Shown here: positions 1-16,763 of the stretch, in pieces
How the letters are laid out: each line of letters begins with the position of its first letter
How positions within the stretch are numbered: the first letter of the stretch is position 1
NCBI GenBank assembly: GCA_030628225.1
Contig: DAOVRJ010000018.1
Location: 1 to 16,763, forward strand
Source: Candidatus Zixiibacteriota bacterium
GTDB taxonomy: Bacteria; SM23-81
DNA length: 16,763 nucleotides
Direction of reading: 5' to 3'
Position numbers and translations under genes: made by a program
The notes under the pieces: model-generated
Told to the model about the DNA's origin: nothing
What the model saw: the letters and a program-made list of their open reading frames with translations, nothing else
The model's database searches: none

Positions 1-1094
1 CTTTTACTCCGATAGCGCTAAATTGTGCCGTCATCCTGGCGGTGATTATCTATGCTGACCGTTTAGGTCCTCTTGGGATTGTCCTTGGGTTTCTCGTGGG
101 GGGTACACTTCAATTTCTTATCCTTTCAAGAGTTTTCCGCATTTATCGGTTTTCTTTTAGGGACAAATTGCACATCGCGGAACCAGCGATGAGGAAAGTT
201 TTTCATTTAGGAGTTTTCATTTTTCTGGTGCAGGCCACCTGGGGATCTTATTTGGTGGTGGATCGTATTTTAGCCTCTTCTCTTCTCAAAGGCAGTATCT
301 CAGCCCTCGCTTTTGCAGACAGACTCATACAGCTTCCCGTAGGAGTTTTTGTTTTGGCCCTAAGTATAGCCGTTCTTCCCCGGATGTCTATCTCTGTGGC
401 CCAGAAGGACTATCGGCGGGTAGAACGGATCTGTTCTGCGGGCCTAAGACTGCTTCTGTTCGTCATCGTCCCGATTAGCATACTATTTTGCATTATGCGC
501 TTCCCTTTGATCAGGGTTCTCTATCAACGCGGTTCTTTTGATGCCAACGCCACGAGATTGACCGCAGGACCACTACTGGCTTATTCCCTGGGACTTTGTG
601 CATTTTCCGGGCAAATTTTCATCCTGCGAGTGTATTTCGCCTTTCAAGACACAGTTACTCCTATTTTAACAGGTTTAATATCTCTGGGAATAAAAATCGT
701 TCTCAGTCTCGTTTTAGTGAGAATATTCGCAGTTACCGGTATTGCCCTGGCCACTTCTATTGCGGCTTCAGTTAACACTGCCCTTCTCGCACTGATGCTG
801 GTAAAAAAAGGTCATGTAACGAAAGTATTTGACAGGTGGCGTAGCCTCGAAAAGTTGTCTTTGGGGTGGTTGCTTTTAGGAGTGGTCAGCTTTTTCGTTT
901 TTCGATCATTCGGTCATTTGTCAGTTTCCCCACAATATTTAGCGGATATCATTCAGATCGCGGGGACGGTGATTTTGGGCAGTCTCGTTTATATAGGAAC
1001 AATGGCTCTTCTTCGAGCTGAAGAGATCGCGAGAATTAAAGAAGCTCTTTGGTCTAGAAGCATATTCCGGACATCACCAAGGAACAATCCCTAG
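1..1094 (+). CDS. murJ: MurJ-family lipid flippase, 5'-truncated by window edge
   Basis: Polytopic inner-membrane protein of the MurJ/MviN family, which flips lipid-linked precursors (lipid II) across the cytoplasmic membrane. The frame is open from base 3 to the TAG at 1092-1094, so the gene begins before the window. The GTG at 42 is internal: the residues before it (TPIALNCAVI) read as part of a membrane helix. About 363 residues are present of the roughly 500 usual for the family. Hydrophobic helices alternate with short loops. The stretch around FILRVYFAFQDTVTPI, followed by a long helix and GIALATSIAASVNT, is very typical of the MurJ C-terminal half. It is followed 15 bases later by an O-antigen ligase-like gene, so a role in exporting a surface polysaccharide intermediate instead of lipid II (Wzx-like) is possible. 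The family call is firm; the substrate is inferred. Confidence 0.88.
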   Translation, partial: FTPIALNCAVILAVIIYADRLGPLGIVLGFLVGGTLQFLILSRVFRIYRFSFRDKLHIAEPAMRKVFHLGVFIFLVQATWGSYLVVDRILASSLLKGSISALAFADRLIQLPVGVFVLALSIAVLPRMSISVAQKDYRRVERICSAGLRLLLFVIVPISILFCIMRFPLIRVLYQRGSFDANATRLTAGPLLAYSLGLCAFSGQIFILRVYFAFQDTVTPILTGLISLGIKIVLSLVLVRIFAVTGIALATSIAASVNTALLALMLVKKGHVTKVFDRWRSLEKLSLGWLLLGVVSFFVFRSFGHLSVSPQYLADIIQIAGTVILGSLVYIGTMALLRAEEIARIKEALWSRSIFRTSPRNNP

Positions 1095-1109
1095 AAACTT
1101 TATTTGCTG

Positions 1110-2531
1110 ATGGTTCAATTTCTGACAACAATATGCTTGCCAAGGAATTGGCAGAGGAAAGTACCTTCCTATTGGGTTTGGGGTTTTCTAAGCCTTGAGG
1201 CGGGACTACTTACTATCTTCGGCCTGGCTGGTGCAAAGTATGCGTTGCTGATTCTCATCGGTGCAGCCGCCCTTTTCATTTGTTTTGCGGGCAGAGTATC
1301 GGTTATATGGGCTCTCATCGTGGTTTCCCCTGTGGTGTTTCTGGAGGGCATCTCCCTGGGGGCTATAAGAGCTGGCAAGTGGGCCTTCGTTATCTTCATC
1401 GTCCTCTTATGGTTCCTCGGGAAAGCCATGAGGGGTGAGAAGATCTTCATCCCCAGCACGTCGGTTAACTATTTTATAATCGGATTTGTGTCATGGGGGG
1501 TCCTCATCTCGCTGAATGCTCTAGACCCCATAGAAAGTTTTATAAACTTGTTGAGGATGAGCAGTTTTTTTGGGCTGTTTTATGTGTTTGTGGATGTCTT
1601 ACAAAGCCGAGAGGGCATCAGGAAAACGGTGGGAGTGTGGATTGGGACGGGGATTTTTCTGTCTATGTTGGGGATTTTCCAATATCGACTCTCCATGATA
1701 CGCTACGGTATTGGACAAAGAGTCTGGGCGACGTTCGAGAATCCCAACAATCTGGGAATCTTCCTGTTCTTGTTGTTACCTGTGGCGCTGAGTTTATTTT
1801 TTCTTCGAGGCAAGCTGATGAAGAAAATTGCTTTGGGTATCGTCATTCTTTTATTTCTATTGTGTCTGTTATGGACAGGGTCACGCTCTTCATGGCTTGC
1901 TACGTACATCGCTTTTGTGGCATTCGGGATTATTGCCAAGAAAAGACGTTTTACCCTGTTGCTTATTGCGCTCGGAGCGATTTTGGGCTTAGCGGTCTCT
2001 TATTCATTGTTGAGAGGAGAGCTATCTTCTCTGTTGAGAATAGGGCGAGGTCTTGCCTTTCGGCCGATTTTGTGGGATATCTCTTGGCGGATCTTCTTAG
2101 ATCATCCCCTGTTTGGTGTGGGTTTCGGATGTATTCCCATTGTTTTTCAGAGCTACTACCCGGTGAGTATCCTCTCACTCTACAAATTGCTCTCCCCCGC
2201 GGCAGGCAGCCCGCATAATCTTTTTCTGCAGATTGGTGCGGAGATGGGAATTATGGGAATTTTACTCCTCTTGGGATTTTTTACAGCCTATTTTTTGGAG
2301 TTGAGAGAGGGGTTAAAGAGAACCCGCGACAAGTATTACCAGGCCCTTGTGATGGCGTTTTTGGCGACTCTTCCAGGGCTTTTCGTTCACTCCTTTTTTG
2401 AACTTTCGGGCGTCATCGGCCCCGGTTCCTATACGGTGTTCTTTTGGCTCTCGGTGGCTCTTCTACAGGCCATTAAGAGAATGGAAGGCAGAACCAGCCC
2501 ATCGGAAAAATGTCTTGACACAGCTGGATGA
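1110..2531 (+). CDS. O-antigen ligase/polymerase-like membrane protein (Wzy_C/WaaL type)
   Basis: Inner-membrane protein of about 473 residues with some ten to twelve hydrophobic helices. Members of this family either ligate lipid-linked O-antigen to lipid A-core or polymerise polysaccharide repeat units at the periplasmic face. Numbered from the ATG at 1110, the visible family marks are F-E-N-P-N (N211/N213) at a helix start, T-G-S-R-S-S-W (S258/R259), a large periplasmic loop beginning WDISWRIFLDHPLFGVGFG, and S-P-H-N (H369/N370) followed by hydrophobic helices. The TTG at 1104 could add two residues; no convincing Shine-Dalgarno marks either start. The gene sits between murJ and two glycosyltransferases, which supports surface polysaccharide assembly. 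Ligase and polymerase cannot be told apart from sequence alone. Confidence 0.82.
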   Translation: MVQFLTTICLPRNWQRKVPSYWVWGFLSLEAGLLTIFGLAGAKYALLILIGAAALFICFAGRVSVIWALIVVSPVVFLEGISLGAIRAGKWAFVIFIVLLWFLGKAMRGEKIFIPSTSVNYFIIGFVSWGVLISLNALDPIESFINLLRMSSFFGLFYVFVDVLQSREGIRKTVGVWIGTGIFLSMLGIFQYRLSMIRYGIGQRVWATFENPNNLGIFLFLLLPVALSLFFLRGKLMKKIALGIVILLFLLCLLWTGSRSSWLATYIAFVAFGIIAKKRRFTLLLIALGAILGLAVSYSLLRGELSSLLRIGRGLAFRPILWDISWRIFLDHPLFGVGFGCIPIVFQSYYPVSILSLYKLLSPAAGSPHNLFLQIGAEMGIMGILLLLGFFTAYFLELREGLKRTRDKYYQALVMAFLATLPGLFVHSFFELSGVIGPGSYTVFFWLSVALLQAIKRMEGRTSPSEKCLDTAG

Positions 2532-2542
2532 TATCATGTAAA
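2515..2542 (+). promoter_or_regulatory. Possible sigma70-type promoter before the glycosyltransferase gene
   Basis: A perfect -35 hexamer TTGACA lies at 2515-2520, overlapping the end of the upstream gene. A 4/6 match to the -10 box, TGTAAA, follows at 2537-2542 after 16 bases. It precedes the 132-base gap before the next gene, the longest gap in the polysaccharide block, so separate initiation of the two glycosyltransferase genes is plausible. The -10 is weak and single hexamer matches arise by chance. Confidence 0.3.
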
Positions 2543-2663
2543 TTTGATTTATTGAGCCCTCGAACATGAACTTAATTCTTAGTTTGCTTCATGGTCTTGC
2601 TGCTTGTGATCGTCGGGGGTGCGTATTGTCAGTCGGAATCCACCACACAATGGCCTAACTAAC

Positions 2664-3761
2664 GTGAAAATATGCTATTTAGCTGATGGAAAAAGCATTC
2701 ATACCCAAAAATGGGTTAGATTTTTTGCGAATCGAAGGTGTGAAGTTCATTTAATATCTTTCCAAAGTGCAGACATCTCGAATATCGTTTTTCATCCAAT
2801 AAAGATATCTTTTTCTCTTCAAATAAGTCCATCTGCGCCTTCATACACAAAAATTGGCTATTTATTTTACCTTAACACAGTAAAGCGCATCATCCGCAGC
2901 ATTGCTCCTGATGTCCTTCACGCCCACTGGGCCACCTCTTATGGATTGCTGGGGGCATTTTCTGGCTGCCATCCTTTCGTTTTATCTACGTGGGGCAGCG
3001 ATGTTTTTGATTTTCCCCATAAGTCTTATTGGCACAAGAAAATACTTGAATATACGATTAACAGAGCGGATTATCTTACAGCCACCAGCCGAATGCTGGC
3101 CGAGGAGACTCGCAAGCATCTACGAAAAAAAAAGATAGTCCATACGATACCATTTGGTGTAGACATAGCTCGATTCAGCCCCAAGGCGCCAAAGGTCCAA
3201 CAAGACTTCACCGTTGGTATTGTGAAGAAGTTGGAAAGAAAATATGGTATCGATTATTTAATCAAGGCATTTGCAAAACTCTTTCGCGCCAACCGCAAAG
3301 CGAAACTGTTGATCGTCGGAGATGGATCTGAAGAGTCGACGCTTAAAAAGTTATGCAAGTCGCTGGATGTGGACCGTAATGTCCGTTTTATAGGTTTTGT
3401 GGAAAACGAACAGGTGCCGGACTATCTGAGCCAGATGGATATTTTCGTGGTCCCTTCAATTATGTCTTCGGAGACCTTTGGTGTCGCCGCAGTAGAAGCT
3501 GCTGCTTGCAAATTGCCGGTAATCGCTTCCAATATTGGGGGACTTCCGGAGGTCGTGATCGATGGAGAGACGGGGTTCTTGGTGCCATCGAAAGATCCGA
3601 ACGCTATCGCGGAAAAAATGGTATTGCTTATGCAGGAGATTGAATTGAGAAAAAGAATGGGTGAGGCGGCTAGACGGTTCGTCGAACAAAACTATGTCTG
3701 GGAAGAGAATGCTAAGGAGATGGAAAGGTTATATTTGCGCGCTGCCAAGAAACGCGGTTGA
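2664..3761 (+). CDS. Glycosyltransferase family 4 (group 1)
   Basis: Cytoplasmic, probably membrane-associated GT-B retaining glycosyltransferase that adds a sugar from an NDP-sugar to a growing lipid-linked glycan. The N-terminal acceptor domain opens V-K-I-C-Y-L-A-D, the usual GT4 first strand, followed by SIHTQKW and later STWGSDVF. The C-terminal donor domain shows GIVKKLERKYGIDYLIKAF, LLIVGDGSE, VRFIGF and the E-x7-E element in SSETFGVAAVEAA, then GLPEVV-DGETGFLVP. I chose the GTG at 2664 because the family's first beta strand begins there; a GTG at 2619 in the same frame would add 15 residues that do not look like the family. Neither start has a good Shine-Dalgarno. Part of the gene is AT-rich (23 G+C of 60 in 3241-3300). 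Donor and acceptor sugars are unknown. Confidence 0.88.
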   Translation: MKICYLADGKSIHTQKWVRFFANRRCEVHLISFQSADISNIVFHPIKISFSLQISPSAPSYTKIGYLFYLNTVKRIIRSIAPDVLHAHWATSYGLLGAFSGCHPFVLSTWGSDVFDFPHKSYWHKKILEYTINRADYLTATSRMLAEETRKHLRKKKIVHTIPFGVDIARFSPKAPKVQQDFTVGIVKKLERKYGIDYLIKAFAKLFRANRKAKLLIVGDGSEESTLKKLCKSLDVDRNVRFIGFVENEQVPDYLSQMDIFVVPSIMSSETFGVAAVEAAACKLPVIASNIGGLPEVVIDGETGFLVPSKDPNAIAEKMVLLMQEIELRKRMGEAARRFVEQNYVWEENAKEMERLYLRAAKKRG

Positions 3762-3816
3762 ACCTGGGCACCAGAGTGCCAGCTTGTCTTTGTTTCGCGT
3801 AACCATTGGTAAAGAT

Positions 3817-3821
3817 AGGAG
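3817..3821 (+). promoter_or_regulatory. Shine-Dalgarno site deciding a TTG start
   Basis: AGGAG lies eight bases before the TTG at 3830. The next residues (R-I-L-F-I-T-Q-Y-F-P-P-E) are the classic N-terminus of WbuB-like GT4 enzymes, so the site and the family alignment together fix this non-ATG start. Confidence 0.7.
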
Positions 3822-3829
3822 TCTTTTAA

Positions 3830-5071
3830 TTGAGAATACTTTTCATCACCCAATATTTTCCCCCGGAGGTGGGCGCCGCCGCCTCAAGGGTTCAGGATAT
3901 TACCGAAGAGCTGTCTGGTCTCGGGCATGATGTAACTGTGGTAACGGAGATTCCCAATTATCCTACAGGGATAATCCATGAGAGGTATCGGTTTAAGCTG
4001 TTTCACAAGGAGAGAGTCAACGGCATCAAAATTATCAGAACGTTTGTCTTGGCCTCCGGGCGCAGGTCTTTTCTGCAGAGGATGTTGCTATACATCTCTT
4101 TTATGGTTTCTGCAATATTTGGATCCTTGTTTCTGAACGGAATTGACGTCGTGGTGGCCACATCACCTCCGCTTTTCGTGGGTTTTTCCGGATTCGTGAT
4201 CGCTCGTTTAAAAGGGGCCAGATTCGTCTTTGACGTTCGCGATCTCTGGCCGGAGTCCGCCATCGCCCTTGGCGAACTGAGCAGCAAACGCCTCAGGAAG
4301 CTATCTGTTAGCTTGGAGCAGTTTCTTTACAGGAAAGCGAAGAAAATAACAGTGGCCGTTCCTGGTTTTCGGGAAAAAATAGCCGGGAATTCGATAAAAC
4401 CAGATAAAATACGGTCGATCACGAATGTCGTTGATGTAGAGAAGTTTACCCCTCATCCTGACAAGCAAGTTTTCAGAAGAGAATTTGGCTGGAAAGATCA
4501 GTTCATCGTTTTATTCTCAGGAAATCACGGTCTCGCCCAGGGTCTCAGCACGATCATGGAGGCGGCGAATCTGTTGAAAGACCGGGAAGAAATTTTGTTT
4601 GTTTTCGTGGGAGAAGGGGTAGAAAAGCCTCATCTGGAGCATATTAAAAAGGATCTTCTACTAAATCAGGTATTTTTCGTTAATGAGCAGCCCAGGGAGC
4701 GGATGTCTTCCTTTATAAACATGTCAGATGTGTGCTTAGTTCCATTAAAAGATCTCAGTCTTTTCGATAATGCACTGCCGTCTAAAATGTTGGAATACAT
4801 GTCTTGTGCTCGTCCCATTATTGGTTCCCTGCGAGGTGAGGCGAAAGCCCTCATAGAAAGAGCCGGGGCGGGTGTTGTGATAGATCCTGAAGATCCGCAG
4901 AAATTAGCTGAGGCTATTATCCGTCTTCATGATCAACCTGGGCTTCGCCAAAAACTGGGCAGATGCGGGCGTGAATTTGTGAGCAAACATTACTCCCGAG
5001 AACGGCGGGCAAAAACCTTTGAACGCATTTTGCTGGATATTTATCCGCACCAAGATATATCTTCAACGTAG
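3830..5071 (+). CDS. Glycosyltransferase family 4, WbuB-like
   Basis: GT-B glycosyltransferase of 413 residues for surface-polysaccharide assembly. WbuB-type enzymes of this subfamily transfer an amino sugar, such as N-acetyl-L-fucosamine, to the lipid-linked chain. The N-terminal domain has ITQYFPPEVGAAASR and the G-H-D-V-T-V-V-T strand. The middle has the subfamily signature FDVRDLWPESAIALGEL, then a basic amphipathic region that may contact the membrane. The C-terminal domain shows LFSGNHGLAQGL, FVFVGEGVEK and LPSKMLEYMSCARPIIGS. The strict E-x7-E element is replaced by the K-M-L-E-Y form, as usual in this subfamily. It starts with TTG behind a good AGGAG. It lies 68 bases after the previous glycosyltransferase and 40 bases before the glycosylphosphotransferase, in the same direction. 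The exact sugar is not predictable here. Confidence 0.9.
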   Translation: MRILFITQYFPPEVGAAASRVQDITEELSGLGHDVTVVTEIPNYPTGIIHERYRFKLFHKERVNGIKIIRTFVLASGRRSFLQRMLLYISFMVSAIFGSLFLNGIDVVVATSPPLFVGFSGFVIARLKGARFVFDVRDLWPESAIALGELSSKRLRKLSVSLEQFLYRKAKKITVAVPGFREKIAGNSIKPDKIRSITNVVDVEKFTPHPDKQVFRREFGWKDQFIVLFSGNHGLAQGLSTIMEAANLLKDREEILFVFVGEGVEKPHLEHIKKDLLLNQVFFVNEQPRERMSSFINMSDVCLVPLKDLSLFDNALPSKMLEYMSCARPIIGSLRGEAKALIERAGAGVVIDPEDPQKLAEAIIRLHDQPGLRQKLGRCGREFVSKHYSRERRAKTFERILLDIYPHQDISST

Positions 5072-5111
5072 TAGACATATTCCCATCTGTCCTTAAATTA
5101 GCAGATATCCC

Positions 5112-6509
5112 ATGCACAAATTCCGCGAAAGAGCTTTTCTGATCTTAGCTGATATCGTCGCCCTGAACCTGGGCCTTTTCCTGATGTACTGGTTCAGGTT
5201 TCGATCCGGGGTGGCGCCGACAGTGGCCGATTTGTCGCCGGTCAGTTATCTGGTTCCGGCCCTGTGGATTACCATCTACTGGCTGATTATCTTCGCCTTT
5301 AACGGGCTGTACAAAACCTCCTGGGATGTCTCTCGAATCGACGAAGCTCTCTCCCTGTTCAAGGCCATCACCCTGGGCGTCCTCGTCATGGCGGTGGCCA
5401 CCCTGGACCTCTCGGATCCATTTCCCATCTCTCGTCTGGTCGTTTTCGGCTACTGGCTGACCCTGCTCGTTCTTCTGAACATCTTTCGGCTCAGCTTAAG
5501 GGGTGTGGAGAAACATTTCCAGAGCCGCGGCTATGGGCGAAGGCGGGCGGTCATCGTCGGAGTTGCTGAGCGGGGGGAACTGCTTTTAGGGGAGCTCTGT
5601 GAGTATCGCGCTCTGGGATACGATATCTTGGGTTTTGTGGACGATGATCCGGCAAAGGCCGACAAAGAGATATTGGGCAAAAGGGTGCTGTGTTCAACGG
5701 CGGACCTGCCCCGCCTGATACGAGATCAGAGCATAGAGGAGGTGCTCATCGCCATCTCAAGCACCTCTCACCAGGCCATTTTGCGCATTATGAGCCTCTG
5801 CATAGGCACCAAGGTGGTTTTCAGAATCGTTCCCGATCTCTATGACATCGTCAGCGGACATAAAACCAGCCAGGTTTACGGATTTCCTCTGATACGGCTC
5901 TTCCCGGAGCCCATGGACATGGGACAGAGGTTTCTGAAGCGATTCTTCGACATCGTCTTCTCCCTGATCTTTCTGGTGGTTTTTTCGCCTCTGTGGGTTT
6001 TGGTGGCCGTGGCTATAAGGCTGAATACCAGAGGGCCGGTTTTATTCCGGCAGCAGAGGATCGGCAAGGGCGCCAGGCAGTTTGTTCTTTACAAGTATCG
6101 CTCCATGATTGAGGATGCCGAAAAGGAGACGGGACCCGTGTGGGCTCAGAAGGGCGATCGCCGGGTGACCGGAGTGGGTCGAGTGCTACGCCGGGCCAGG
6201 CTTGACGAGATCCCCCAGTTGATCAATGTCCTCAAGGGCGAGATGAGCCTGGTGGGGCCCCGTCCCGAGAGGCCGTATTTTGTGAGTAAGCTGATGCAGG
6301 AGATACCTCTGTATTCCCGTCGGCTGAACGTAAAACCAGGGCTCACCGGCTGGGCCCAGACGAGACACAACTACGATGCCTCCATCGATGACGTTCGGGA
6401 GAAAGTAAGGTACGACCTGTACTACATCGAGAACATGTCCCTGAGCCTGGATCTGAAGATCCTGGCGCGAACTATTCTGGTGACTCTCACCGGCTCCGGG
6501 GCACACTGA
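5112..6509 (+). CDS. Polyprenyl glycosylphosphotransferase (undecaprenyl-phosphate sugar-1-phosphate transferase)
   Basis: Inner-membrane enzyme that starts polysaccharide repeat units by moving a sugar-1-phosphate from an NDP-sugar to undecaprenyl phosphate. The layout of the 465 residues matches the WbaP/WcaJ/EpsL-like family. There are four N-terminal helices within about residues 8-130. A Rossmann-like CoA_binding_3 domain runs from about 140 to 245 (AVIVGVAERGELLL, LGFVDDDP). A re-entrant hydrophobic helix starts after K-R-F-F-D (K276-D280). The Bac_transf catalytic domain follows, with LFRQQRIG, YKYRSM, R-L-D-E-I-P-Q (D365/E366, the conserved catalytic pair), MSLVGPRPERP and KPGLTGWAQ. 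The ATG at 5112 opens directly into the first helix. Hand counts give higher G+C here than upstream, so it may not share a history with the block before it. The sugar (glucose, galactose or an amino sugar) is unresolved. Confidence 0.93.
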   Translation: MHKFRERAFLILADIVALNLGLFLMYWFRFRSGVAPTVADLSPVSYLVPALWITIYWLIIFAFNGLYKTSWDVSRIDEALSLFKAITLGVLVMAVATLDLSDPFPISRLVVFGYWLTLLVLLNIFRLSLRGVEKHFQSRGYGRRRAVIVGVAERGELLLGELCEYRALGYDILGFVDDDPAKADKEILGKRVLCSTADLPRLIRDQSIEEVLIAISSTSHQAILRIMSLCIGTKVVFRIVPDLYDIVSGHKTSQVYGFPLIRLFPEPMDMGQRFLKRFFDIVFSLIFLVVFSPLWVLVAVAIRLNTRGPVLFRQQRIGKGARQFVLYKYRSMIEDAEKETGPVWAQKGDRRVTGVGRVLRRARLDEIPQLINVLKGEMSLVGPRPERPYFVSKLMQEIPLYSRRLNVKPGLTGWAQTRHNYDASIDDVREKVRYDLYYIENMSLSLDLKILARTILVTLTGSGAH

Positions 6510-7636: not shown

Positions 7637-7674
7637 ATGACGTTAGGCATTTTATCATGTCAAGCGGAAAAGAT

Positions 7675-7681
7675 GGAAGGA
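7675..7681 (+). promoter_or_regulatory. Shine-Dalgarno site deciding the serS start
   Basis: GGAAGGA lies six bases before the ATG at 7688. It supports that start over the in-frame ATG at 7637, which coincides with the putative -10 region of the promoter and would add 17 residues not found in the family. Confidence 0.75.
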
Positions 7682-7687
7682 ATATCC

Positions 7688-8959
7688 ATGTTGGACTTGA
7701 AATTCGTTCGTCAGAATGCCGACCTGGTCAGAGAGGCCATCGCAAACAAGGGGGAGAAGGTTGATCTGAACCGGTTTCTGAGTCTGGATCAGGAGTACCG
7801 GGATCTGCTGGTGCGCGGAGATCGCCTGAAGCATGAGCGCAATGTGGTCTCCAAACAGATCGGGGCTTTGCCGGGCAAGGACCAGGAGGCCGGGGAGCAG
7901 ATGGCCAAAATGAGGGAGGTTTCCCGGCAGATCAAGGATCTGGACACGCGAGGCAAGGTTCTGGAAGGCGAAATTCAGCAGATTGCCATGGCCATCCCCA
8001 ATATACCCCACTCGTCGGTGCCCATTGGCCGGGACGATGGGGATAACGTGGAGATCAAACGTTGGGGAGAGCTGCCCCAATTTGATTTTCAACCGCTGCC
8101 CCACTGGGAAATCGGCGAGCGACTGGACATATTGGATCTGAAAGCCTCTTCTAAGATCAGCGGTTCGGGTTTCATCCTCTTCAAGGGACTGGGCGCCTTG
8201 CTGGAAAGGGCATTGATTTCTTTCATGCTCGACCTGCACACCAGGGAACACGGTTACCTGGAAGTGGCGCCGCCTTTCTTGGTCAACCGGAAGTCCATGG
8301 AAGGCACCGGCCAGATTCCCAAGCTCAGCGAAGACATGTACCTCTGTGAACAGGATGATCTTTTTTTGATTCCCACGGCTGAGGTGCCCCTGACCAATAT
8401 CCATCGGGAGGATATCCTCCGAGGTGATGATCTTCCCCAGAATTATGTGGCGTATACTGCCTGTTTTCGCCGTGAGGCCGGATCCTACGGGAAGGATACC
8501 AGGGGAATCACCAGGGTTCACCAGTTCGACAAAGTGGAGCTGGTCAAGTTCGTTCGGCCAGAACGATCCTATGATGAACTGGAAAACCTCCTGGGTCATG
8601 CCGAAAAAGTCTTGCAACTGCTGAATTTGCCTTATCGAATAAGGGTTCTTTGCACCGGCGATCTCAGCTTTGCCGCGGCCAAGTGTTATGATATCGAGGT
8701 CTGGGCCGCCGGACAGGATAAGTTTCTGGAGGTCTCCTCTTGCAGCAACTTCGGAGATTTTCAGGCGCGCCGCAGCGGCATCCGCTTTCGGGAAACTCCC
8801 GGAGCCAGGTCCGAATACGTACACACTCTTAACGGCTCAGGGGTGGCCCTGCCCAGGACGGTCATCGCCATCCTGGAGAACTGCCAGACCGCATCAGGAG
8901 ATGTGCTCATTCCTGAGGTCCTGCGTCCATATATGCGAGATTTGAAAAGGATCGAGTGA
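7688..8959 (+). CDS. serS: Serine--tRNA ligase
   Basis: Cytoplasmic class II aminoacyl-tRNA synthetase that charges tRNA-Ser (and tRNA-Sec where present) with serine at the cost of ATP. The 423 residues match the normal length. The N-terminus M-L-D-L-K-F-V-R-Q-N is the standard opening of the tRNA-binding helical arm, whose charged coiled coil fills residues of about 30-105 (LKHERNVVSKQIG). The catalytic core shows TAEVPLTN, motif 2 (FRREAGSYGKDTRG, then RVHQFDKVELVKF) and motif 3 (LEVSSCSNFGDFQARR with NGSGVALPRTVIAILEN). It is first in an eight-gene apparent operon with a promoter 52-80 bases upstream. Only one base separates its stop from the histidine kinase start, so translation of the two is probably coupled. 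Long antisense frames here are codon-bias shadows. Confidence 0.98.
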   Translation: MLDLKFVRQNADLVREAIANKGEKVDLNRFLSLDQEYRDLLVRGDRLKHERNVVSKQIGALPGKDQEAGEQMAKMREVSRQIKDLDTRGKVLEGEIQQIAMAIPNIPHSSVPIGRDDGDNVEIKRWGELPQFDFQPLPHWEIGERLDILDLKASSKISGSGFILFKGLGALLERALISFMLDLHTREHGYLEVAPPFLVNRKSMEGTGQIPKLSEDMYLCEQDDLFLIPTAEVPLTNIHREDILRGDDLPQNYVAYTACFRREAGSYGKDTRGITRVHQFDKVELVKFVRPERSYDELENLLGHAEKVLQLLNLPYRIRVLCTGDLSFAAAKCYDIEVWAAGQDKFLEVSSCSNFGDFQARRSGIRFRETPGARSEYVHTLNGSGVALPRTVIAILENCQTASGDVLIPEVLRPYMRDLKRIE

Positions 8960-8960
8960 A

Positions 8961-10217
8961 ATGATGGCCTTCAGGGAAAAAGGGAGCCGTTCTTATCAAG
9001 CCTATAGGTTTTCCTGGTTTTTTAGGGGATTTCTGTTTTTGGGCGGCATGGCTCTCATTTTTCTTTTTCTTCTGTACACTCAGAGCTTGATGGCCAAGCT
9101 CAAGGAGAATGCCACCAGCGTTTCCAATGCCTATGCCAAGCTTCTGGCCGTGGCCACCTATTCAAACACAGCGGGTCCAGAGCTCAACGTGATCTTCGAG
9201 GAGGTGATTCGCAAAACGGATTTCCCCATCATCCTGACAGATCCCGATGGAATTCCGCAGGTGTGGAAGCATGTACCTGTCTCCTGGGATGATGAAACCC
9301 CCCAGGCAAGAGCCAGGTTGCTGAAGCTGGCCCAGAAGCTTGACCGGCAAAACGACCCCATTCCCCTGCAGACCGGGTCCGAGGATCAGATTATCGGGTA
9401 CCTGCACTATGGAGAGTCCCAGCTGATCAGGCGGTTAGGGTGGTTGCCCTATGTAGAGGTGGTGGTGGCCATTTGTTTTGTGCTTATTGGGGTCTATGGT
9501 TTTCAGAACATCAAGAAAAGTGAGCAGCGCTACATCTGGGTGGGTATGGCCAAGGAGACAGCTCATCAGTTTGGCACTCCGCTGTCATCGCTTATGGGCT
9601 GGCTGGAGTTGATGAAGGACCAGGTGGACAGGAACCACCAGAAAATGGATCCTGAAGGTTACGAGAAATTCGACTCCATGGTGCTCGAGATGAAGGGTGA
9701 GGTGGATCGTTTGAGCAAGATCGCCTCCCGTTTTGGTAAGATCGGGTCTACACCGGAGCTGGAAAGGACAGATATTGTTCCTGTTCTCACCAGCGCTGTG
9801 GCATATATTCGCCGACGCCTGCCCCGGATGGAGAGGGAGATCAAGATTATAGAGACCTATGAAAAAGTGCCCCTGGTAGCCATCAACAAAGATCTTATGA
9901 TCTGGGTAGTGGAGAATTTGATCAAGAACTCTCTGGATGCCATCGCCGAGCGCTATAGCGTTATCAGGATAGTGATTGAGAAAGACCGTTCCGGCAAATG
10001 CGTCAATATTCTGATCAAGGATCAGGGTCGGGGAATCAGCCCTAAGGAACAAAAGAGGATCTTTCTTCCCGGGTACACCACTAAAAAGAGAGGATGGGGA
10101 TTGGGGCTCACCCTGGCTAAAAGAATTGTGGAGGAATATCATCGGGGAAAGTTGTACCTGGCCGAAAGCAAACCCAAGCAGGGATCCACTTTTGTTATCT
10201 CGCTGCCCGTTGCCTGA
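8961..10217 (+). CDS. Membrane sensor histidine kinase, PorY-like partner of the adjacent PorX-type regulator
   Basis: Inner-membrane sensor kinase of 418 residues. A first helix spans about residues 20-39 and a second about 162-183, enclosing an extracytoplasmic sensing domain of about 120 residues (FPIILTDPDGIPQVW, IIGYLHYGES) that may be PAS/Cache-like. The kinase core begins immediately after helix 2. The H box reads M-A-K-E-T-A-H-Q-F-G-T-P-L with phosphoacceptor H202, in the AHQ(L/F)GTP form common among Bacteroidetes kinases rather than the usual SHELRTP. The ATPase part has the N box with N323 (ENLIKNSLDA), the G1 box D354-Q-G-R-G and the G2 box at G378 (GWGLGL). The ATG at 8961 has AAAAGGA upstream; an ATG at 8964 is an equal alternative. 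It lies between serS and the regulator, 18 bases before the latter, so the two are probably a cognate pair. The signal it senses is unknown. Confidence 0.9.
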   Translation: MMAFREKGSRSYQAYRFSWFFRGFLFLGGMALIFLFLLYTQSLMAKLKENATSVSNAYAKLLAVATYSNTAGPELNVIFEEVIRKTDFPIILTDPDGIPQVWKHVPVSWDDETPQARARLLKLAQKLDRQNDPIPLQTGSEDQIIGYLHYGESQLIRRLGWLPYVEVVVAICFVLIGVYGFQNIKKSEQRYIWVGMAKETAHQFGTPLSSLMGWLELMKDQVDRNHQKMDPEGYEKFDSMVLEMKGEVDRLSKIASRFGKIGSTPELERTDIVPVLTSAVAYIRRRLPRMEREIKIIETYEKVPLVAINKDLMIWVVENLIKNSLDAIAERYSVIRIVIEKDRSGKCVNILIKDQGRGISPKEQKRIFLPGYTTKKRGWGLGLTLAKRIVEEYHRGKLYLAESKPKQGSTFVISLPVA

Positions 10218-10235
10218 GCAAGGAGTGATCTGGCC

Positions 10236-11795
10236 ATGGAGGAGAAGAAAAAGCTTCTTTGGGTCGATGACGAGATCGATCTGTTGAAATCGCACATCAT
10301 CTTCCTGGAGGGTCGGGGCTACACTGTGGTGCCCGTCTCCAACGGGGACGACGCCATCTCCCTGATTCAGAAGGGCCATTTTGATATCGTTCTGCTGGAC
10401 GAGATGATGGCCGGCAGGGATGGTCTTTCCACCTTGGAGGGGATTAAGGAGGTGGAGCCCAATGTGCCGGTGGTGATGGTCACCAAGAGCGAGGAAGAGA
10501 CGTTGATGAATGAGGCCATCGGCCACCGTATCGACGATTACCTGACCAAGCCGGTCAACCCCAGCCAGATTTTGTCTGCCTGCAAACGGCTCTTGGAATC
10601 CCGCAAGATTCAGGAGCAGCAGGTGGCCAAGGATTATGTCGCGGAGTTCAACCGGCTGAGAGCTCAAATGGCCACCGGCCAGATGAGTTGGCGGGAGTGG
10701 ATAGATGTGCACAAGAGTTTGTCTGAGTGGGATCTGCTCCTGGACCGCTTTCCCGACGTGGGCCTGAAGCAAACTCAAGAGGATCAGAAGAAGGAGTGCA
10801 ATCACGCCTTTGCTAAATACGTCGCGGAGAATTATCGCCATTGGATCGGGGAAAAAGATCCCCCTGTGCTCTCGGTGGATGTGGTCGCCGAGCATCTCTA
10901 CCCGCTATTGCTGGCCAAGAAACATGTATTCTTCGTGGTCATCGACTGCATGCGTTTGGATCAGTGGCTGGCCATTGAGGCCATTTTAGCCGACTACTAT
11001 GACATCACCAAACACTACTATTACTCCATTTTACCCACCGCCACGCCCTATTCCAGAAATGCACTGTTCAGCGGGCTATACCCCGGGGAAATTGCCAAAA
11101 GCTATCCGGATCTGTGGAGGCCGGGCACGGCTGACGACCAGAGTAAGAACCGGCATGAGCGACAGTTGCTGGATCGACAGCTTAAGAAGATGGGTTTGAG
11201 TCTGTATCCGGAGCCCAAATATGTCAAGGTGCTGGACGTGAAGGAAGCTGCCAACGTCCACAGGAAACTCTCCGCTTACTACGAGATCCCCCTGGTCTCC
11301 ATGGTGTTCAATTTTTTGGACATTCTGGCCCACGGCCGGTCCGAATCGGAGATTTTGCAGGAGATCGCTCCGGATGAATCGGCCTTTCGATCTCTGATGC
11401 GGTCCTGGTTTTTACACTCCCACCTGTTTGAAATTCTTAAAGCCCTTTCCAAGCGCGACGTGACTGTGGTGGTGACCACTGACCACGGGAGTGTGCTGTG
11501 CACCAGGGGAACGAAGGCCTTCGGCAAGAAGGATACCTCCACCAACCTGCGATACAAGTACGGTAATAACCTTCGCTGTGATACCAAACAGGCTCTGTTG
11601 ATTAAAAAACCAGAGGATTATAAGCTGCCCGCTTACAGTTTCAACACCACCTACATCATCGCTGAAGAGGACTTTTATTTCGTCTATCCCACAAAGTTTC
11701 ACGAGTATCAACGCCAGTACAGGAATAGTTTTCAGCATGGGGGCATCTCTTTAGAGGAGATGATACTCCCGGTGGCAGTGATGAGGCCCAAGTAG
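10236..11795 (+). CDS. porX: PorX-like response regulator with PglZ domain
   Basis: Cytoplasmic response regulator of 519 residues, the length of Bacteroidetes PorX, which controls type IX secretion genes and carries an alkaline-phosphatase-superfamily PglZ domain with reported nucleotide phosphodiesterase activity. The receiver domain (about 5-125) has the acidic pair D11/D12, phosphoacceptor D55, T83 and K105, plus the PorX-like strings LLWVDDEIDLLKSH, VTKSEEE and DYLTKPVNPSQIL. A helical linker spans about 126-225. The PglZ domain (about 226-519) has VVIDCMRLDQW (D237), P-T-A-T (T268, T270) and T-T-D-H-G-S (D416, H417). These are the expected metal ligands and nucleophile. It ends with NSFQHGGISLEEMILPV, as PglZ proteins usually do. 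AAGGAG precedes the ATG by ten bases. It is adjacent to its probable kinase and abuts tsaE with no gap. There is no DNA-binding domain, so output is enzymatic or by protein contact. Confidence 0.93.
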   Translation: MEEKKKLLWVDDEIDLLKSHIIFLEGRGYTVVPVSNGDDAISLIQKGHFDIVLLDEMMAGRDGLSTLEGIKEVEPNVPVVMVTKSEEETLMNEAIGHRIDDYLTKPVNPSQILSACKRLLESRKIQEQQVAKDYVAEFNRLRAQMATGQMSWREWIDVHKSLSEWDLLLDRFPDVGLKQTQEDQKKECNHAFAKYVAENYRHWIGEKDPPVLSVDVVAEHLYPLLLAKKHVFFVVIDCMRLDQWLAIEAILADYYDITKHYYYSILPTATPYSRNALFSGLYPGEIAKSYPDLWRPGTADDQSKNRHERQLLDRQLKKMGLSLYPEPKYVKVLDVKEAANVHRKLSAYYEIPLVSMVFNFLDILAHGRSESEILQEIAPDESAFRSLMRSWFLHSHLFEILKALSKRDVTVVVTTDHGSVLCTRGTKAFGKKDTSTNLRYKYGNNLRCDTKQALLIKKPEDYKLPAYSFNTTYIIAEEDFYFVYPTKFHEYQRQYRNSFQHGGISLEEMILPVAVMRPK

Positions 11796-12290
11796 ATGAA
11801 TGGGTCGGAACCTTCTGAGGTGGAGACCAACAGCGTCGAGGAGACCAGGGCCCTGGGCGAGCGGTTGGGGAGGCAGTTAAATCGGGGGGATGTGGTGGCG
11901 CTGATGGGTGATTTGGGCAGTGGCAAGACATCCCTGATTCAGGGGATCTGTCGCGGACTGGGGGTGAAGGGTGTGGTCAACAGCCCCAGCTACACCATCG
12001 TCAACGAATACGCGGGCCGCTGTTCCGTGTATCATCTGGATTTTTACCGCCTGCATGGCCGGGATGACCTCCTGTCTCTGGGCTACGAAGAGTATTTTTA
12101 CGGGGATGGGATCTGCCTCATCGAGTGGGCGGAGAGAGCTGCCGATCTGTTGCCTGCCCAGCGGGTTGAGGTGCATTTGATAAGGGGCAGGGGCACGCGG
12201 AGAACCATCGCCATCAGGAGGATGGGCGAGAATGAGGGTTCTGGCAGTGGAGACGGCCACTCCTCTGGGCTCAGTAAGCCTGGTGGATGA
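11796..12290 (+). CDS. tsaE: tRNA t6A biosynthesis ATPase TsaE
   Basis: Small cytoplasmic ATPase that, with TsaB and TsaD, supports transfer of threonylcarbamoyl to adenosine 37 of ANN-decoding tRNAs. The 164 residues show the family pattern: helix EETRALGERLG, Walker A G38-D-L-G-S-G-K44-T45, the switch-like segment SPSYTIVNEY, then Y-H-L-D-F-Y-R-L and LIEWAERA. The ATG directly follows the stop of the regulator gene, with GAGG nine bases before it. The normal domain ends around TIAIRRMGE; the last 19 residues, a Gly/Ser-rich tail, lie inside the start of tsaB in another frame (59-base overlap), an unusually long overlap. tsaD, the catalytic subunit gene, is not in this window. Confidence 0.95.
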   Translation: MNGSEPSEVETNSVEETRALGERLGRQLNRGDVVALMGDLGSGKTSLIQGICRGLGVKGVVNSPSYTIVNEYAGRCSVYHLDFYRLHGRDDLLSLGYEEYFYGDGICLIEWAERAADLLPAQRVEVHLIRGRGTRRTIAIRRMGENEGSGSGDGHSSGLSKPGG

Positions 12291-12930
12291 GGATGGCGTA
12301 ATTTTAGAGCGTGAATCAGGGGCGGTGAGCGCCCACTCGACCTGGCTTCTGCCGGCCATTCGTGATTTGCTGGCCACAGCCCGGCTGTCCCTGGAAGAGG
12401 TGACCGGCTTCGCCGTATCAGCGGGTCCGGGATCTTTCACCGGTCTGCGCATCGGCATGAGCACCGTCAAAGGGTTGGCATTGGCCACGGGGAAGCCGAT
12501 GGTCGCAGTGCCCACTCTGGACGCTCTGGCGGAGATGATCCCCTTCTGTCGCCATCTGGTCTGCCCCATTCTGGATGCCCGAAAAAAAGAGGTTTATGCG
12601 GCCCTGTACCGTCACCTGCCAAGAGGGGGTGTTCGCCGGCAGGGTGACTATCTCGTTCTGGCGCCCCGCGATCTGGCCTGCATGATTACCGGGAAGGTTC
12701 TTTTTCTGGGCACAGGGGTCGATCTTTACAGAGATCTGATGATGGAGCTTCTGGGGAAGAAGGCTCTCTTTGCCTCAGCCCACTTCCGGCATCCGCGGGC
12801 TTCTGCTGTTGGTCGACTGGGCTTGCGTCGGCTGGCCCGGGGTCAAGCAGACGATTTGGACCGCTTGGAGCCGCTGTACGTGCGGCCATCGCAGGCGGAG
12901 TTGATCAGGAAAGGTCGCTTGAAAGGATGA
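12232..12930 (+). CDS. tsaB: tRNA t6A biosynthesis protein TsaB
   Basis: ASKHA-fold protein of 232 residues that dimerises with TsaD and is needed for tRNA t6A37 formation. It opens M-R-V-L-A-V-E-T-A-T with LGSVSLV, the usual first strands. It then shows the S-A-G-P-G-S-F-T-G-L-R-I-G signature (VSAGPGSFTGLRIG) and DARKKEVYAALY. The start at 12232 lies within tsaE. No other in-frame start would keep the first beta strand, so the overlap is real unless tsaE ends early through an error. It overlaps rimI by four bases (ATGA), a translational-coupling arrangement. Confidence 0.95.
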   Translation: MRVLAVETATPLGSVSLVDEDGVILERESGAVSAHSTWLLPAIRDLLATARLSLEEVTGFAVSAGPGSFTGLRIGMSTVKGLALATGKPMVAVPTLDALAEMIPFCRHLVCPILDARKKEVYAALYRHLPRGGVRRQGDYLVLAPRDLACMITGKVLFLGTGVDLYRDLMMELLGKKALFASAHFRHPRASAVGRLGLRRLARGQADDLDRLEPLYVRPSQAELIRKGRLKG

Positions 12931-15779: not shown

Positions 15780-16763
15780 TCATCTGACCAGCACCATCTT
15801 GATGGTTTTGTCAAAATCACCAGCCTTCATCTGGCAGAAATAGACGCCGCTGGCCACTGGGACTCCCCTTAGATCTCGGCCGTCCCAGCGAACCTGATGG
15901 GTGCCGGCAGCCTGGGGTTCATCCACCAGTGTGTTGACCAGTTGCCCATTGACGTTGTAAACCCTGATGGTGATCGGGCCTGGCTCGGGCACCTGGTAGC
16001 TGATCCAGGTCTCGGGGTTGAAGGGGTTGGGGTAGTTTTGACTCAAAGAATAGGCGGTCGGCAGTTCTGTTGCGCTGATGACATTGTCTTCAACTCCCGT
16101 GCCACCTGTGAATTCCAGAATGATCAAACCACCATCCCCATCCGCCACGTAGGCATAGTTCCCAGAGACCACCACACCACGGGCAGAGCCCGGAGTGTCG
16201 TAGTAACCTTGCTCGTGGGGATTGGCAGGATCGCTCACGTTCACCACTCGAAGACCATATACAGCCGCCACGTAGGCAGAACTCCCGGAAACCGCCACAT
16301 CTTGGGAATAACCATGAGTTTCGTAGAAACCTTCCTCGTATGGATTAGCAGGATCACTCACATTCACCACACGAAGACCACCAGCCGCCACATAGGTATA
16401 ACTCCCAGAGACCGCCACACCCCAAGCCCATTCCGGAATGTCGCATTGACCTTCCTCGTATGGATTAGCAGGATCACTCACATTCACCACTCGAAGACCG
16501 CCGTACCCATCTGTTATATAGACATAGCTCCCGGAGACCGTCACCCCCCAAGCCCAATCCGAAGTGTCGTAGAAGCCTTCCTCATAGGGATTGGCAGGAT
16601 CGCTCACGTTCACCACTCGAAGACCAGAAAGCCCAGTTGCCACGTAGGCATAACTTCCGGAGACCACTACATTGCGAGCAGAACCCGGAGTGCCGCAGTA
16701 GCCTTCCTCGTACGGATTGGCAGGGTCATCCACGTTCACCACACGAAGACCATCATACCCATC
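15780..16763 (-). CDS. LVIVD-repeat beta-propeller surface protein with C-terminal type IX-style sorting domain, 5'-truncated
   Basis: C-terminal 327 residues of a secreted or surface protein. The frame is open to the window edge, so the GTG at 16742 is internal (DGYDGLR precedes it) and the signal peptide lies outside. Five repeats of 40-42 residues with the core G-L-R-V-V-N-V-S-D-P-A-N-P-Y-E-E-G match the LVIVD repeat, which forms beta-propeller blades. A linker follows (VEDNVISATELP). The last 90 or so residues are a FlgD-like immunoglobulin/type IX sorting domain: YSLSQNYPNPFNPETWISY, ITIRVYNVNGQLV, VRWDGRDLRG, VASGVYFCQMKAG and the basic end K-M-V-L-V-R. Such C-terminal domains direct cargo through the type IX secretion pathway in Bacteroidetes and are abundant in related phyla. 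It runs convergent to folC and shares the bidirectional terminator. The ligand or function of the propeller is unknown. Confidence 0.9.
   Translation of the reverse strand, partial: DGYDGLRVVNVDDPANPYEEGYCGTPGSARNVVVSGSYAYVATGLSGLRVVNVSDPANPYEEGFYDTSDWAWGVTVSGSYVYITDGYGGLRVVNVSDPANPYEEGQCDIPEWAWGVAVSGSYTYVAAGGLRVVNVSDPANPYEEGFYETHGYSQDVAVSGSSAYVAAVYGLRVVNVSDPANPHEQGYYDTPGSARGVVVSGNYAYVADGDGGLIILEFTGGTGVEDNVISATELPTAYSLSQNYPNPFNPETWISYQVPEPGPITIRVYNVNGQLVNTLVDEPQAAGTHQVRWDGRDLRGVPVASGVYFCQMKAGDFDKTIKMVLVR
16125..16763 (-). repeat. Near-identical in-frame DNA repeats encoding LVIVD blades
   Basis: Five tandem units. Taking the recurring CGAAGACC as marker (at about 16249, 16372, 16492, 16618 and 16744), the periods are 123, 120, 126 and 126 bases, all whole codons. 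The segment coding VVNVSDPANPYEEG is almost unchanged at DNA level between units, while the blade centre (DTSDWAWG, ETHGYSQD, DTPGSARG) varies. High DNA identity suggests recent duplication or gene conversion. The array continues past the window edge. Confidence 0.85.

Follow-up and report, generated by a model that had tools for sequence, protein, structure and literature searches.

The stretch of DNA analysed here (the window; 16,763 nucleotides of contig DAOVRJ010000018.1 from a Candidatus Zixiibacteriota bacterium) carries a membrane sensor histidine kinase gene, herein porY (8961..10217, + strand; 418 aa; HATPase_c E 6.7e-19, weak HisKA), followed by the gene of a response regulator that joins a receiver to a PglZ domain, herein porX (10236..11795, + strand; 519 aa). 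Reading of the open reading frames agrees with the preliminary description that kinase and regulator are co-directional and lie 18 bases apart, with an 18 bp stop-to-start gap (10218..10235, +) that contains a ribosome-binding-like AAGGAG (10220-10225), 10 nt upstream of the porX ATG. The description of the locus as a two-gene pair holds for the pair itself, but the row is longer: serS, encoding seryl-tRNA synthetase (7637..8959, +; TIGR00414, 518 bits), ends 1 bp ahead of the kinase gene, and downstream the first base of tsaE (11796..12290, +; PF02367, E 2.7e-41) is the base after the porX stop. The end of tsaE is in turn overlapped by tsaB (12232..12930, +; TIGR03725), beyond which gene order continues with rimI-like, accD and folC genes. 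A terminator scan of the region found no terminator-like site between porY and porX, and promoter- and terminator-like sites in the region were no commoner than in shuffled sequence; because the genes are so tightly spaced, the row is likely transcribed as one unit. Further upstream (42-6509) lies what appears, from the look of the sequence, to be a polysaccharide-export and glycosyltransferase cluster (flippase-like, ligase-like, two glycosyltransferases and a sugar-phosphate transferase).

The identity of the regulator is clear. The NCBIfam model T9SS_RR_PorX (NF052313) matches it over its full length (residues 6-519) at 677.5 bits, and we use the name porX because this equivalog score is more than twice the cut-off of 300; the solved PorX structures 7pv7 and 8ted (from Porphyromonas gingivalis and Flavobacterium johnsoniae) match it with E about 1e-133. 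Its receiver domain (residues 8-115; 10257..10580, +; PF00072, 83.1 bits) contains D55 (codon 10398..10400, +) in the motif LLDEMM, the residue put forward as phospho-acceptor in the preliminary description, and in an alignment of PorX sequences D55, T83 and K105 are invariant in 110 of 110. The PglZ (alkaline-phosphatase-like) domain (10923..11504, +; PF08665, 64.5 bits) is equally well preserved at its catalytic metal site: D237, T270, D416 and H417 are invariant in all 110 sequences and H501 in all 109 that align at that position, T270 being aligned with the Thr that is replaced by Ala in structure 7pvk. A reading of the regulator as a BREX PglZ protein was rejected, the BREX-3 PglZ model scoring 103.7 bits, far under its cut-off of 250; BREX PglZ proteins have the PglZ domain in common with PorX, whereas the receiver domain is a feature of PorX, and no BREX genes were seen within the window.

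The naming of the kinase rests on family comparison because the window kinase scores below the cut-off of every NCBIfam kinase model, which leaves room for the idea that a kinase from an unrelated family, and not PorY, has been placed beside porX. We regard this idea as close to refuted. Along almost its entire length, including the sensor, the window kinase shares 37-49% identity with its best 80 named relatives, and in a control profile search (kinase-family profile of 38 sequences) kinases outside the family reached at most about 132 bits, as against at least 313 bits for full-length members. Each of 155 Bacteroidota genomes carries one family member, and the F. johnsoniae genome (G703, with a PorX 100% identical to that of structure 8ted) has exactly one, of 384 aa; F. 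johnsoniae was used as the reference instead of P. gingivalis, whose PorX as query gave at best 59% identity in the order searched (that of G215). Counted in ORFs, the F. johnsoniae member lies 36 beyond PorU and 37 beyond PorV, both recognised by curated models, and a published table gives PorV as Fjoh_1555, PorU as Fjoh_1556 and PorY as Fjoh_1592 (PMC5445135), so that the member is Fjoh_1592; such a count is accurate to within a few genes, exact on the PorU side and four too high by the SprA-sized gene (expected Fjoh_1653). By sequence comparison, then, the window kinase is identified as PorY, with the link to P. gingivalis PorY (PGN_2001) running through Fjoh_1592, and the possibility raised in the preliminary description that the kinase might belong to a clade unrelated to PorY did not materialise. 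Its ATP-binding catalytic domain spans residues 314-417 (9900..10211, +; PF02518, 68.8 bits). The histidine singled out in that description as the kinase phospho-site, H202 (codon 9564..9566, +), lies in ETAHQFGTP and is invariant in 110 of 110 PorY sequences; it is predicted to be the phosphorylated residue and corresponds to residue 183 of 384 in the F. johnsoniae member. In P. gingivalis PorY the H-box phospho-histidine is His193.

Structure prediction gave a full kinase model with mean pLDDT 85.9, in which a small alpha-beta sensor accompanies predicted membrane helices, and a model of the extracytoplasmic sensor by itself (residues 42-163; 9084..9449, +) that again formed a small alpha-beta domain (mean pLDDT 79.1). 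A fold search with the whole kinase model returned only generic kinase cores. Foldseek on the sensor placed 7dud, 3cwf and 4ywz first with probability 0.95-0.98 but E 0.025-0.05, and the modelled sensor may thus resemble the extracellular PAS-like domains of WalK and PhoR-type kinases, a lead on fold that is silent on ligand. Downstream of the phospho-histidine, positions 8, 11 and 12 are S, G and W, with hardly any variation whether the kinase is linked or not; counted from H260, the phospho-histidine of HK853, positions 8 and 11 match two HK853 residues altered in rewired HK853-RR468 structures (as read from the structure titles).

The adjacency of the two genes is not unique to this genome, as the preliminary description had allowed it might be. 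Among 98 genomes of the Zixibacteria phylum, 92 have PorX, 93 have PorY and 91 have both, and in 89 of these 91 the genes are adjacent, kinase first and on the same strand, an order more frequent than chance would give. One of the two non-adjacent cases is real (G070), with serS-porY and porX-tsaE on different contigs and about 6 kb read past porY without porX; in the other, the contig ends at porY. In the three genomes with one gene only, the genes are incomplete or lie close to the end of a contig. A wider scan kept the best 80 named-genome loci found with a profile of linked kinases, which biases its fractions and makes the Zixibacteria count the less biased of the two: porX follows on the same strand in 44 of the 80 loci (within 206 bp in 40 of them), at least 2 kb of downstream sequence lacks porX in 27, and nine end too early. 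Of the 44 loci with porX downstream of porY, 35 also keep serS in its upstream place.

Some loci depart from this pattern in detail. Four Eisenbacteria (L060, L068, L073, L092) have inserts between porY and porX that hold a Gly/Asp-rich repeat protein and peptidase-like genes, mostly on the opposite strand; we considered and set aside a functional meaning for these 1-4 kb inserts, the inserted genes looking unrelated and mostly antisense. In one Zixibacteria MAG (L043, 6001-7221) PorY has three in-frame stops beside an intact PorX, and a second genome of the same phylum (G1032) also has stops within PorY, which may reflect frameshift, assembly error or a decaying kinase. The PorX matches of three further genomes (G991, G992, G1018) run through one in-frame TAA.

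Published work describes porX and porY as orphan genes at separate locations (PMC4800418, PMC10951265, PMC11320123). The statement in the preliminary description that the two are unlinked in Bacteroidetes is borne out by these papers and by our own count, in which porX and porY were adjacent in 0 of 145 Bacteroidota genomes, the nearest pair being about 11 kb apart. The shortest spacings in the phylum, 11-13 kb, are those of five Bacteroidota genomes (G142, G146, G252, G228, G158).

Quick trees built with 110 sequences each of PorY and of PorX place the 45 linked pairs in one group, with four unlinked pairs inside it in the PorY tree and three in the PorX tree; one genome (G033) sits on a long branch and its placement is unsure. 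The trees need five (PorY) and four (PorX) changes of linkage state, as against about 35 in shuffles. Linkage was gained or retained once, in about one event, and broken a few times, and since the trees are unrooted either state may be ancestral. Because the linked state is essentially one clade, the many genomes that show it cannot be counted as independent events.

Measured over the two trees as a whole, PorY and PorX distances correlate at 0.89. A plain correlation of this kind was counted as evidence only after controls with the flanking genes: at 26 linked loci the PorY-PorX correlation was 0.90 and remained 0.63 with SerS and TsaE distances removed; the same treatment left 0.36 for PorY-SerS and -0.06 for PorY-TsaE.

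Co-occurrence points the same way. In a sample of 198 Bacteroidota genomes (E-value limits 1e-80 for PorX and 1e-50 for PorY), PorX and PorY were found in an identical set of 155, one copy each, and 43 had neither; the positive genomes are identical in both tables, as are the 20 negatives listed, and a Fisher test on these counts would overstate significance because the 43 negatives probably reflect few independent losses. Among 60 genomes of relatives (the window's included), 15 have PorX; a PorY match (E up to 1e-30) accompanies it in 14, two of them (G009, G028) with the match split across contigs. The 45 relatives without PorX include one MAG with a full PorY (G058); in the remainder, any match is to the generic kinase core and reaches no more than about 132 bits. 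A PorX-like protein in one relative (G042; L015, G042:C141, 1483-3102; 455 bits) has D55 replaced by Ser and K105 by Met, and in that genome neither PorY above background nor SprA was found. It is a natural control, in which the phosphorylation input has been lost.

PorX and PorY are controllers of the type IX secretion system (T9SS), a bacterial protein-export machine, and the T9SS translocon gene SprA (TIGR04189) scored above cut-off in 16 of the 60 relatives, the window's own genome (G000) among them, a set nearly the same as the PorX/PorY set. As read from this gene, the window PorX appears to occur in a T9SS genomic background. Two genomes break the match: the MAG with PorY and no detected PorX (G058) has SprA, and a 92% complete MAG of the window's own family (G001) has SprA, with PorX and PorY not found; because porX and porY are linked in its phylum, one missing contig could account for both absences. 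Within the window, an LVIVD-repeat protein (15780..16742, - strand) carries a C-terminal T9SS type A sorting domain (TIGR04183, 41 bits, cut-off 23; PF18962, 28.1 bits, cut-off 27) and is probably a secreted T9SS cargo encoded near the control genes.

From the gene identities, the adjacency, the one-to-one co-occurrence, the conserved catalytic residues and the presence of the SprA gene, all shown by the analysis, we hold it highly probable that the locus encodes an orthologous PorY-PorX two-component system, its genes neighbours in a serS-porY-porX-tsaE row, in which an envelope signal would drive phosphotransfer from H202 to D55. Two predicted membrane helices would anchor PorY and carry a PAS-like extracytoplasmic sensor; an envelope signal would trigger autophosphorylation at H202, and the phosphate would then be passed to D55 of PorX. 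For the window organism, we infer the phosphotransfer, the signal and the downstream action.

How much the gene order itself contributes deserves care. The preliminary description took adjacency as direct genetic evidence of partnership; adjacency gives strong circumstantial support but falls short of proof of phosphotransfer, and serS and tsaE are equally neighbours without being obvious partners. One could accordingly suppose that a true PorY and a true PorX lie passively side by side in a housekeeping row (serS ... tsaE) and that PorX receives its phosphate chiefly from other kinases or from acetyl phosphate, both of which have been proposed for PorX (PMC11320123). Indeed, porX stays next to tsaE in most unlinked genomes too, F. 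johnsoniae included, with no known functional tie between them. We consider this account improbable, however: PorY is present in every sampled Bacteroidota genome with PorX, the correlation between PorY and PorX distances outlasts removal of SerS and TsaE, and both genes persist in genomes where the block has broken up (in L036 and L037 PorX lies elsewhere).

Reading the locus as a PorY-PorX two-component system bears on a live dispute over which kinase phosphorylates PorX. In vitro, P. gingivalis PorY binds PorX and phosphorylates it (PMC4800418); T9SS function reportedly survives deletion of P. gingivalis porY, a deletion also reported to be milder than that of porX (PMC11320123). The linked porY-porX row elsewhere in the FCB group and the strict one-to-one co-occurrence of the two genes in Bacteroidota lend the pairing independent support, and the linked loci offer kinase-regulator pairs whose identity is known for use in phosphotransfer and coevolution studies. 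Several papers give the T9SS as restricted to Bacteroidota, and we found no report in the open-access literature of porY-porX linkage, PorX or type IX secretion in Zixibacteria; here, genes of T9SS control and the translocon gene SprA are present outside Bacteroidota. We lean, somewhat beyond an even chance, towards the wider proposal that PorY and PorX serve only each other, as one pair that is a core module of T9SS control throughout the FCB group, that the unlinked state of the P. gingivalis type is the exception of some lineages, and that Zixibacteria and relatives keep, or gained once, a hard-wired row. If this is true, the PorY-PorX control module reaches well beyond Bacteroidota.

Among known systems, the closest are the PorX-PorY pairs of P. 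gingivalis (PGN_1019, PGN_2001) and F. johnsoniae (Fjoh_2906, Fjoh_1592), which the window pair resembles in having the same REC-PglZ regulator and the same family of membrane-sensor kinases, the phospho-histidine and phospho-aspartate conserved, and the same T9SS background (SprA). It differs in gene order: porY and porX lie next to each other on one strand, flanked by serS and tsaE, whereas they are separate in P. gingivalis (according to the literature) and in 145 of 145 Bacteroidota. In this respect the window pair is like classical operon-encoded pairs of the EnvZ-OmpR type, with kinase and regulator adjacent on one strand across a short gap; unlike these, it is kinase-first, and its output is a PglZ phosphodiesterase rather than a DNA-binding domain.
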